Shown piece by piece: positions 12,457 to 15,520 of a stretch of DNA of 64,000 nt. Position 1 is the stretch's first letter, and each line of letters begins with the position of its first letter. The translations under genes were made by a program, and so were the position numbers. The stretch lies in assembly GCF_030846775.1 (NCBI RefSeq), contig NZ_CP132910.1, forward strand, positions 3,382,001 through 3,446,000, written 5' to 3'. The notes beneath the pieces are model-generated. The model searched no databases, was not told where the DNA came from, and saw nothing but the letters and a program-made list of their open reading frames with translations. The stretch is from Geothrix sp. 21YS21S-2. Its GTDB lineage: Bacteria > Acidobacteriota > Holophagae > Holophagales > Holophagaceae.

Positions 12457-13242
12457 ATGCAGATCAAGTTCTCCGAAGATGTGATCCTCGACAGCCGCCG
12501 CGCCATCCTGATGCCCCGCCAGGAGACCCTGGTCATCGCCGACCTGTTCCTGGGCCTGGGCGCCGGGCGGAGGAAACGTCCGGATGCCCTGCCCAACGGC
12601 CAGCAGCACGAGATCTGGGAACGTCTCCTGGGCCTGCTGGAGGACTTCAAGCCCAAGCGGGTGGCCATCCTGGGCGACATCAAGCCCAACCAGGGCCATC
12701 TGGAGGAGGACGAGGCCGAGGAGCTGCGCCTCCTCTTCCGCAAGCTGGGCAACCACGGGCGGGAGGTCATCCAGGTGGTGGGCCACCCCGAGCGCAGCTG
12801 GGGCCCCTCCCTGGAGGGCACCGGGATCCAGCCCATGGACACCTACCGGGTGGGCATCAACACCCTCATGCACCGCCGGCGCATCTTCGTGTATCCCCGC
12901 CACGATCCCCCCACGGGCTTCTGGATCAACGGCGGCCTCCACCCCCTTTTCGCCGTGCCCATGGCCGGGCCCGACCAGCAGGAGGAGTGGCTGCGCTACC
13001 CCGCCTTCCTCTACACCGGCTTCGCGCTGGTGATGCCGAGCTTCGTGTCCTACGCCCAGGGCTGGGAAGTGATGCAGCCCGAGCGGCTCCCCAAGCAGGC
13101 CCGGGCCTGGAAGGTTGTGGGGGACAACCTGCTGTCGCCGCTGTCCCTGCCGGACCTGCCGTCGCCGCCGGACAGCCAGAAGCTGATCACCAGGCCCCCG
13201 GCACGGGGAAAGCACCGGGAGAACCGGGGCGAGGAGAGCTAG
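12457..13242 (+). CDS. Degenerate metallophosphoesterase-like protein
   Basis: 261 aa. The order of motifs resembles ICC/PdeM-type calcineurin phosphoesterases: ETLVIADLFLGLG near residue 23, RVAILGDIKPN near 68 and VIQVVGHPER near 105. Key metal ligands appear changed: the usual DxH is DLF (Asp29, Phe31), and the usual GNH[DE] is GHPE. Asp74 of the GD motif is kept. It may have lost or altered catalysis. An in-frame ATG at 12436 would add seven residues; neither start has a strong ribosome binding site. Its 3' end overlaps the convergent esterase-like gene by 56 nt. Confidence 0.6.
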   Translation: MQIKFSEDVILDSRRAILMPRQETLVIADLFLGLGAGRRKRPDALPNGQQHEIWERLLGLLEDFKPKRVAILGDIKPNQGHLEEDEAEELRLLFRKLGNHGREVIQVVGHPERSWGPSLEGTGIQPMDTYRVGINTLMHRRRIFVYPRHDPPTGFWINGGLHPLFAVPMAGPDQQEEWLRYPAFLYTGFALVMPSFVSYAQGWEVMQPERLPKQARAWKVVGDNLLSPLSLPDLPSPPDSQKLITRPPARGKHRENRGEES

Positions 13243-15064
13243 CGGCCCAAGGCTGGGAGGGGTGGATGCGTTCCAGGAAGATCAGGGCGTCCAGTTCTTC
13301 GGGGGCGTTGATGGCAAGGGCGTGCGGGCGGGAAGGGTCGAAGCACAGGGGTATGAAACGGACGCCTTGGGGCGAATCCAGCCAGCGTCGAGTCTCTCCC
13401 TGGGGCCGGCCAGGGCGCAGGTCGAGGAGGAGCCGCGGCAGGCCGGTGGATCCCAGGGCTTCGTCCAGGGTGGCCCGGGGGTCCGGACCCACCTCGAAGG
13501 GGACCCAGGCCGGATCTTCCCGGCCGGCCTCCAGGGCCATGAACCCGCCGCGCCGGAAGGTCATCGCGACGGGTACGTAGTCGGCCCCGAGTTCCTGCGC
13601 GAGATGCCAGCCCATGGTGGGCCATCCCATCGAGTTCCGGAGGGATCTGGCGACGTGGCCGCAGTGGGCGAAAACCAGCACGCGGCCTCGAACGCCTTCC
13701 TGCCGCAGGACCCACCGGACATTTTCGGCCATGGCCAGCTCCCGGGCCCGGGACCCGCCCGTCAGATCCACAGCCAGTGGAATGAATTGGCCCAGCGCCA
13801 CCAGCGACCGCCGCTGCCTTTCCAGGGACCGGGAGTCCAGGGCCGTGGTCAGCGCGTCGAGCCGCCGTTGAAGAAGCTCCAGGGCGGCCCGCCACCGGTC
13901 GGCCCGGGCCTGATCGCCCGGAAAGCCAGCCTCCCGGGCAGAACCGAGGTCCCCGAGTACCCTCTGGAAGTGGGACGCGGTCCTGGGATCATGCCGGCGA
14001 AAGAAGGTGAGGGCCCAGCGATAGGCGGGTCCAGGATCGGCCGGATCGATCCCGTAGATCCTGAATCTCGAATCCCGCGGCCTGGGGCCGTTGAAACGGC
14101 GCAGCCACTGGAGCAGGTCCCGGATCTCGCCGGTACGGTAGGCAAGGGGAAGGGCCTGGACGGATTCGGATTCTTCGCCCTGGATGAAGGCATCGAGCGT
14201 GAAGCCATCGCTGGGGGAAAGCTCCAGCGCGATGGCCCGGGGTTCTCCGCGACCGCCAAGGCACTGGATCACCTCGTGGACGATCTGGCGGAATTCCCTG
14301 GACCCGTGCGTGGCCTCCCCCAGGCCCAGCACGGCGCCGGACCTCAGCAAACCGTCCAGGCGGCCTGGGTCCCCGGTTTCCAGCGGGACGGCCTGGGCCT
14401 GAAGCCAGCCCACCGTTTTCCGCGGGGCGGGTGACGGCTCCGGAACGAGCACTGCGTTCCGGTCCTGGGGCACCCGTCCAGCCTCAAGCCACTCGCCCGG
14501 GTGCATCAGCCCCTTCGCCCACGGAAGGAAGAAATACGTCCCGGGGGCAACCGCGACCTCGTAGCGGCCATCTCGGATCCGGACCAGACGGACCGAAGCG
14601 GCCGTCAGGAGGGGACCCCCCAGGGGAGGCACAAGCCCCAGGATACCGTCCAGGGGGTGGCCCCCGAGGTCCCGGATCTCGCCGCGCAAAGGGGACCCGC
14701 CGCCCTGCAGCTGGAGCGGGAAAGGCAGGGTGTAGGTGGAACCCGGGTCCACGGAGAACCGGCTCACATTGGCACCGATGAAGGCCGGATGGCTCACCGA
14801 AAGGCCGTGAGGACCCGGCGGCAGCGAGAAGCGGAAGCGGCCCCGCCGATCCGTCCGCTGCCAGGCCACCCTTTCGAAGCCGCTCCAGCCCTCTACCGGA
14901 TCAAGCGGAAAGACTGCGACCGCGGCACCCGGTTCAGGTTTGCCGGAAGGGTCGAGTACCTGACCCTCCACCACCCCCGTCACCGGGCGGCAGGAGAGGC
15001 TTCCGCCCAGAAGCCAGCAGAGGATCGCAGCCAGGGCCAGCCCGGGATGCCGCCTCGCGTTCAC
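13187..15064 (-). CDS. Erythromycin esterase-like lipoprotein with carboxypeptidase-regulatory-like domain
   Basis: 625 aa. GTG 15064 gives a signal peptide ending in GGSLSC, a likely lipobox. A carboxypeptidase-regulatory-like beta-sandwich follows (VEGQVLDPSGKPEPGAAV, about residues 30-110), then an erythromycin-esterase-type domain from about residue 260. That domain carries the family motifs GLGEATHGSREF, an Ala-rich strand ending in ELSPSDGF, and VLVFAHCGHVARS. EreA/EreB enzymes open macrolide rings, but most relatives act on unknown substrates, so resistance should not be assumed. It lies 19 nt after a small GG-leader-like gene. Confidence 0.75.
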   Translation of the reverse strand: MNARRHPGLALAAILCWLLGGSLSCRPVTGVVEGQVLDPSGKPEPGAAVAVFPLDPVEGWSGFERVAWQRTDRRGRFRFSLPPGPHGLSVSHPAFIGANVSRFSVDPGSTYTLPFPLQLQGGGSPLRGEIRDLGGHPLDGILGLVPPLGGPLLTAASVRLVRIRDGRYEVAVAPGTYFFLPWAKGLMHPGEWLEAGRVPQDRNAVLVPEPSPAPRKTVGWLQAQAVPLETGDPGRLDGLLRSGAVLGLGEATHGSREFRQIVHEVIQCLGGRGEPRAIALELSPSDGFTLDAFIQGEESESVQALPLAYRTGEIRDLLQWLRRFNGPRPRDSRFRIYGIDPADPGPAYRWALTFFRRHDPRTASHFQRVLGDLGSAREAGFPGDQARADRWRAALELLQRRLDALTTALDSRSLERQRRSLVALGQFIPLAVDLTGGSRARELAMAENVRWVLRQEGVRGRVLVFAHCGHVARSLRNSMGWPTMGWHLAQELGADYVPVAMTFRRGGFMALEAGREDPAWVPFEVGPDPRATLDEALGSTGLPRLLLDLRPGRPQGETRRWLDSPQGVRFIPLCFDPSRPHALAINAPEELDALIFLERIHPSQPWAASSPRPGSPGAFPVPGAW

Positions 15065-15083
15065 AGACAGCCGGCAGCGGTGA

Positions 15084-15392
15084 TCAGTTGCGGACCACGT
15101 GGGGCTTCCCGTAGCCGGTGGCCAGCCGATGCTGGAGCATGTGGACGCTGTGGTTCGGGTCGGGAGGTCCCAGGATTCCGGGGTTCGCCTTGACCAGGGC
15201 ATCGAACCTGGCCTGCCCGGCGGCCAATTGCTGGTCGCGGATGCCCCCGGGACGAAGGTAGGGGTCATCATCCCTGTTGAGATGCGTGGTCCGGACAAGG
15301 GAATTCCAGGGAAACCGGGAGATCATTCCTCCGGTGACCCCATCGAGCACGGAATCGTCAATGCGCGGCAAGGAGGGTGAAACGGTTCTCAT
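15084..15392 (-). CDS. Small protein with bacteriocin-like GG leader
   Basis: 102 aa beginning at ATG 15392, with AAAGGAG 5 nt upstream, so translation is well supported. The first 22 residues contain IDDSVLDGVTGG, close to the leader pattern in which an acidic/hydrophobic stretch ends in a Gly-Gly cleavage site of peptides exported by C39-peptidase ABC transporters. The remaining 80 residues are polar, Pro/Asn/His-rich and match nothing I know. No transporter or modifying enzyme is adjacent; the esterase-like lipoprotein follows in the same operon. Confidence 0.6.
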   Translation of the reverse strand: MRTVSPSLPRIDDSVLDGVTGGMISRFPWNSLVRTTHLNRDDDPYLRPGGIRDQQLAAGQARFDALVKANPGILGPPDPNHSVHMLQHRLATGYGKPHVVRN

Positions 15393-15520
15393 GGCGTCTC
15401 CTTTCAGGGAAGGGCGGAATCAGCGGCCGGCTTGCTGAAGCCGGGCCGAATTCCGTCCAGGAAGGAGTGTCCTGGAGGCCGGGGCAGGTTCCCCGGTGGG
15501 GCTTCCCTCCCCGGGTTCCG

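Follow-up and report, generated by a model that had tools for sequence, protein, structure and literature searches.

A double-glycine precursor peptide paired with an Ere-like lipoprotein in Geothrix: a candidate partnership outside the cytoplasm

Does a small open reading frame (ORF) directly ahead of a gene for an erythromycin esterase (Ere)-like lipoprotein encode a genuine exported peptide, by which route would it leave the cell, and what would it do together with its neighbour? Both genes lie in the window, the 64-kb stretch of DNA analysed here, which corresponds to bases 3,382,001-3,446,000 of the single 5.25-Mb contig of its genome (G000). The precursor gene has the following features, given in window positions:

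15084..15392, minus strand: whole precursor gene including the stop codon, 102 aa, from the ORF list
15398..15404, minus strand: Shine-Dalgarno sequence AAAGGAG, 5 bases ahead of the ATG, with equivalent sites before the ATG in 4/4 homologues
15327..15392, minus strand: double-glycine (GG) leader, 22 codons, ending in GGA GGA
15087..15326, minus strand: predicted mature peptide of 80 aa, 8.96 kDa, pI 10.4, without Cys

The leader of the window precursor reads MRTVSPSLPRIDDSVLDGVTGG, ends in LDGVTGG and is followed by a Met. Alignment of the four known members of the peptide family showed that the two Gly, Leu(-7), Asp(-11) and the Met after GG are invariant, and positions -12, -7 and -4 of the leader are hydrophobic. 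Position -8 is not Glu, unlike the ComA consensus given in PMC6363468, which counts against the reading that we favour below. A scan of both strands of the window for a ribosome binding site followed by a leader-shaped ORF returned a single ORF, the 102-aa precursor, whereas 20 first-order Markov control runs gave 2 hits in total (mean 0.1). The pN/pS ratio of the leader was 0.41-0.63 in all six pairwise comparisons of the four homologues, with synonymous sites near saturation. Because of this chance scan, the divergent Gly-Gly codons of the G002 homologue (GGCGGC), the separate ribosome binding site of each of the four genes and the constraint at the protein level, we regard the leader as real; judged from sequence, the 102-aa product is a true double-glycine precursor, as the original prediction of a strong ribosome binding site and a GG leader had proposed.

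At the thresholds applied, searches of Pfam, NCBIfam, PADLOC and PHROGs placed the protein in no family. PADLOC matched neither the precursor nor the lipoprotein, PHROGs gave a single weak match (E 0.2) for one of the four family members, and a sequence search of the PDB with the peptide found nothing significant (best E 0.92). A weak Pfam ComC match of the paralogous peptide described below (E 0.051) stayed under the cut-off. The promoter and terminator scan was empty.

A second copy of the peptide gene is present in G000 (C1:4350509-4350793, minus strand), its product being about 41-42% identical to the window peptide. Two further genomes of the genus, G002 and G005, each carry one homologue, about 56-59% and 64% identical, respectively. 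A four-sequence profile detected the peptide in three of the six genomes of the genus. Searches beyond the genus gave one match among 100 relatives (G055, E 0.0035) and one match outside the genus among 396 genomes of the phylum (G212, E 6e-4). Both were judged to be chance matches: the first lies on the opposite strand of an ORF that looks transposase-like by eye, and the frame of the second is interrupted by stops. A wider genome scan with the single peptide returned nothing, while a pattern based on the alignment, run on the genomes of 84,980 species, matched only the metagenome-assembled genome Holophagaceae bacterium UBA692, apparently identical to G005; the plasmid search left the peptide unmatched. 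The peptide family thus has no relative outside the genus in the genomes searched.

Conservation along the four peptides is uneven. Pairwise identities range over 32-53% for the leader and 15-57% for the N-terminal segment of the core; they are 55-73% for the C-terminal half of the core, which includes the motif PPDPN...RLA.GYG.P and has a pN/pS of 0.22-0.44, again with synonymous sites near saturation. A C-terminal half conserved above the leader is as expected for a peptide with a binding partner. The four mature peptides measure 75-85 aa and have a pI of 9.7-10.4, a GRAVY of -0.47 to -0.64, 5-11% Gly and one Cys or none.

The gene that follows on the same strand has these features:

13187..15064, minus strand: Ere-like lipoprotein gene with a likely GTG start at 15064, from the ORF list; adjacent to the peptide gene at 4/4 complete loci
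14990..14992, minus strand: codon for the Cys that is probably lipidated (Cys26 in alignment numbering)
14714..14971, minus strand: CarboxypepD_reg-like domain PF13620 (E 5.9e-13; 49.4 bits against a cut-off of 32.3)
13250..14419, minus strand: Ere-like catalytic domain PF05139 (E 2.6e-43; 149.6 bits against a cut-off of 26.4)

The mechanically called ORF extends to 15298 and overlaps the peptide gene. Most likely the real start is the GTG at 15064, 19 bases past the stop codon of the peptide gene (15084-15086), giving a protein of about 626 aa. Alignment of the four lipoprotein homologues revealed invariant E251 and H254 (GExTHG), E282 and H468/H471 (AHxGH). The spacing of H254 and E282 equals that of His46 and Glu74 in EreB, and the domain likely keeps its catalytic residues. 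It shares PF05139 and the residues E-x-x-H, E(+28) and H-x-x-H with the erythromycin esterase superfamily (EreA/EreB; 2RAD/3B55), but differs from these enzymes in its predicted export, in its CarboxypepD_reg domain and in NCBIfam scores that fall well short of the thresholds for EreD (39.8 bits against 800) and EreB (22.9 against 750), so it does not count as a recognised macrolide esterase. Among solved structures, its closest matches are entries named 'succinoglycan biosynthesis protein': 2rad/3b55 (2rad, E 7.3e-24), followed by 2qgm (E 8.9e-16).

The N-terminus of the protein is signal-like, with a hydrophobic stretch followed by Cys26, which is invariant in all four homologues. The lipobox consensus is [LVI][ASTVI][GAS]C, and the residues at -3 to -1 (SLS, VLH, PTA, TLG or similar) never match it fully; one homologue has a His at -1. 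The invariant Cys26 after a hydrophobic stretch makes export with lipidation likely, the non-textbook lipobox notwithstanding. Of the surface lipoprotein with an esterase fold that had been predicted, the Ere-like domain is borne out and lipidation is probable, whereas the evidence for its location reaches as far as export and not to the surface. AlphaFold models of the lipoprotein (pLDDT 56.1) and of the peptide (pLDDT 63.7, pTM 0.30) were too poor for testing binding.

Coupling of the two genes, also part of the original prediction, is supported. At each of the four complete loci, which are distributed over three genomes, the lipoprotein gene comes directly after the peptide gene and in the same orientation; two of the loci are in G000, where the peptide paralogue precedes a paralogous Ere lipoprotein, so the pair was duplicated as a unit. 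Both proteins have diverged to a similar degree, with identities to the window proteins of about 41, 56 and 64% for the peptides and 44, 59 and 58% for the lipoproteins. The window locus and those of G002 and G005 have cysteine-synthase-like and phosphoesterase-like neighbours in common (named by eye). G005 also carries a relic (L151:3632-4057, minus strand; G005:C19) in which ~12 codons from the start of the peptide gene run in frame into the coding sequence for the ~95 C-terminal residues of the lipoprotein. It occupies the position of the second locus, flanked as there by acyl-CoA dehydrogenase-like and FHA-like ORFs (assigned by eye), and indicates that a single deletion removed most of both genes. 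In the genomes of the genus without the peptide, a different, transposase-like ORF (by eye) follows the cysteine-synthase-like gene in G001, which is complete; the contig ends at this gene in G003; and in G004 the gene was not found at the threshold used.

Searching for Ere genes gave 29 matches in 18 of 120 genomes; those at the four pair loci were the only ones with a GG ORF immediately upstream, as far as the matches could be assessed (no whole Ere ORF was recognised at L114, L118, L119, L121, L128 and L130, and the matches on C228 of G004 lie at the contig start). A third CarboxypepD_reg and Ere protein of G000 (L110:709-3042; C1:5197729) has no GG peptide upstream. Inspection by eye of the ORFs neighbouring the pair loci revealed no apparent RiPP tailoring enzyme or ATP-grasp ligase. 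One further Ere protein was observed in G005 (L113:313-2547; G005:C167); it bears an RDD membrane domain, and its gene is close to a LanB gene (L056), with a C39 transporter encoded ~7 kb away.

Export of the peptide by a C39-type transporter had been proposed from the leader, and the genome of G000 supports this route. It encodes exactly one C39 peptidase domain, whose triad Cys26/His99/Asp115 is intact. The gene belongs to a trio (L007:8774-14089) encoding an HlyD-like adaptor, the C39-ABC transporter (L007:9991-12150, with the C39 domain in its first ~150 aa) and a second ABC protein. The two ABC proteins are nearest to those of the NHLM trio, but remain below the cut-offs (TIGR03796, 660 bits against 853), and for the adaptor the top-scoring model is that of general type I HlyD proteins. 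The distance from the transporter is 1.0 Mb for the window pair and 62 kb for the second one; a transporter gene adjoins the pair at neither G000 locus, and in G002 the C39 transporter is 25 kb away. No GG-leader ORF was found within 19.9 kb around the G000 transporter. Hits to C39 occur in all six genomes of the genus, including the three in which no pair was found, and the exporter is therefore not specific to the pair. The whole resembles the GG peptides of PCAT/AMS systems, including the NHLM trio, in the hydrophobic positions of the leader, the C39 Cys/His/Asp residues, the HlyD-like adaptor and the second ABC protein, and is unlike them in the distance between transporter and precursor, in the sub-threshold TIGR03796 score and in a precursor that belongs to no Pfam or NCBIfam family.

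The prediction would have been refuted by a genome devoid of other GG-leader genes or a transporter; besides the C39 transporter, at least three GG-leader genes in addition to the window precursor were found in G000. A pattern of ribosome binding site, ATG and leader spacing matched 16 times, against 2 for the backward control. Eight of the 16 matches, at seven sites, were in frame, and four sites encode convincing leaders: the two peptides of the pair family, a glycine-rich peptide and a Cys-containing peptide beside LanC/LanB genes. Such dispersed precursors imply export in trans. From these sequences it is very likely that the window peptide would be exported in trans by the C39 system, and a single C39 exporter probably serves several scattered precursors.

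These precursors merit a brief description. The Cys-containing one (81 aa, three Cys) is part of a class I lanthipeptide-type locus of G000 (L098:9998-15712; C1:3162297-3168011) with a LanC-like gene, a weak Rce1-like match and a full-length LanB gene; the locus has no C39 gene, the sole one being 1.2 Mb off. The glycine-rich peptide of G000 weakly resembles Bacteriocin_IIc (E 0.062, under the cut-off) and represents a second, glycine-rich GG-leader family of the genus, with members in G000, G005 (two) and G004, two of the four being weakly Bacteriocin_IIc-like. Their loci (L097:9918-10268; L100:1047-1400; L101:9449-9904, minus strand; L102:2884-3267) are apparently without a transporter gene alongside. 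A Met directly after GG is present in eight of the ten GG precursors compared, from two apparently unrelated families, perhaps because the C39 protease favours it or because it is an internal start. In G002, a LanM-like gene, NHLM-like transporter genes and a leader peptide of the nitrile-hydratase type lie together (L055:1947-12188), in what looks like a typical NHLP lanthipeptide cluster.

A shared extracytoplasmic function of the peptide and the lipoprotein is likely. In the explanation that we favour, the single C39 transporter, whose gene lies ~1 Mb away beside those for the HlyD-like adaptor and the other ABC protein, would recognise the leader; its C39 domain would cut after GG, and the basic peptide of ~9 kDa would be exported. 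The Ere-like hydrolase would be exported by its own signal and probably anchored by lipid. Both would then meet outside the cytoplasm and act as one unit, the mature peptide being the specific partner of the hydrolase, either its substrate or a binder that tunes it, with the conserved C-terminal half of the peptide as the likely binding surface. The leader, the transporter, the paired genes, their duplication and their joint removal can be read from the sequences, whereas export, cleavage, lipidation, the physical partnership and its direction of action are our inferences. We hold the explanation as a whole with moderate confidence; adjacency and joint loss may also reflect mere co-transcription. 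The suggestion of a secreted peptide with a processing or immunity protein is accordingly retained for its secretory part; processing in the sense of leader cleavage would fall to the C39 domain and not to the lipoprotein. We favour this partnership over an immunity pair, tailoring after export and separate functions, which are considered in turn; our gradings are judgements, and the explanations are not mutually exclusive. A search of open-licence papers found no description of such a peptide/lipoprotein pair.

The peptide might instead be a microcin-like antibacterial and the lipoprotein an unusual factor that protects the producer enzymatically outside the cytoplasm, which we consider possible but unlikely. 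The GG leader and the C39 transporter with HlyD-like adaptor match the export parts of class II microcins as set out in PMC9746304, and a GG leader of 17-22 aa and a core of 75-85 aa are shared with microcins of this (colicin V) type; the partner gene adjoins the peptide gene, the genus also has glycine-rich, bacteriocin-IIc-like GG peptides, and a resistance role has been suggested as possible for Ere homologues in graspetide loci (PMC8939145). However, PMC9746304 describes microcin cores as highly variable and the immunity proteins as 51-216 aa in length and tending to the inner membrane, whereas the peptide core here is conserved between species, hydrophilic and not glycine-rich, and the partner is a lipoprotein of ~626 aa. 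Both the conserved, hydrophilic core and the size of the lipoprotein speak against a classical pair of bacteriocin and immunity protein, and as a class II microcin immunity protein the partner does not fit in size or predicted location.

Another explanation, which we find doubtful, is that the lipoprotein chemically tailors the exported peptide in a RiPP-like manner, for example by making or breaking an ester bond. Conservation of the Ere-type residues would suit such an enzyme, as would the graspetide loci described below, where modification is one proposed role of the Ere homologue. Yet known leader-guided tailoring takes place before export, whereas this enzyme is predicted to reside outside the cytoplasm and would meet the peptide after leader removal, and the neighbouring ORFs show no apparent RiPP tailoring enzyme. 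The nearest published arrangement that we found, in PMC8939145, concerns two gammaproteobacterial graspetide loci, in which a GG precursor and a double-glycine peptidase occur together with a distant Ere homologue whose suggested roles are peptide modification and resistance. They resemble the present loci in having a GG precursor beside an Ere relative; however, an ATP-grasp ligase and a peptidase are part of those loci, and neither was seen beside the pair here.

It is similarly improbable that the two genes are co-transcribed and functionally separate, encoding a secreted small protein beside a drug- or ester-hydrolysing lipoprotein. CarboxypepD_reg and Ere proteins without the peptide do occur elsewhere in G000, and other genera of the family have comparable ones that also lack it, but every complete locus of this Ere subgroup has the peptide, and the two were duplicated and lost as a unit. 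Finally, that Gly-Gly merely reflects an in-frame Shine-Dalgarno sequence (GGAGGA-ATG) and the protein begins without a leader at the following Met, as the invariant Met and the GGAGGA codons of the window could suggest, is very improbable given the GGCGGC codons in G002, a spacing to the ATG of only 0-2 bases, the well-spaced ribosome binding site of every upstream ATG, the constraint on the leader and the second GG family of the same form.

Under the favoured peptide-hydrolase partnership, the findings bear on a superfamily in which, to our knowledge, most Ere-like proteins have no known substrate: an Ere subgroup tied to one exported peptide provides a concrete candidate substrate or regulator. 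They also suggest that one acidobacterial C39 exporter serves scattered precursors, namely the peptide of the pair, a lanthipeptide-type precursor and a glycine-rich peptide. More speculatively, and in our judgement with a low probability, the pair may constitute a two-part extracytoplasmic enzyme, in which the Ere-like lipoprotein has a dedicated peptide subunit or substrate that arrives via the separate C39 exporter and not by the general secretory route. If this were true, the large and mostly orphan Ere superfamily would gain a peptide-linked role unrelated to macrolides.
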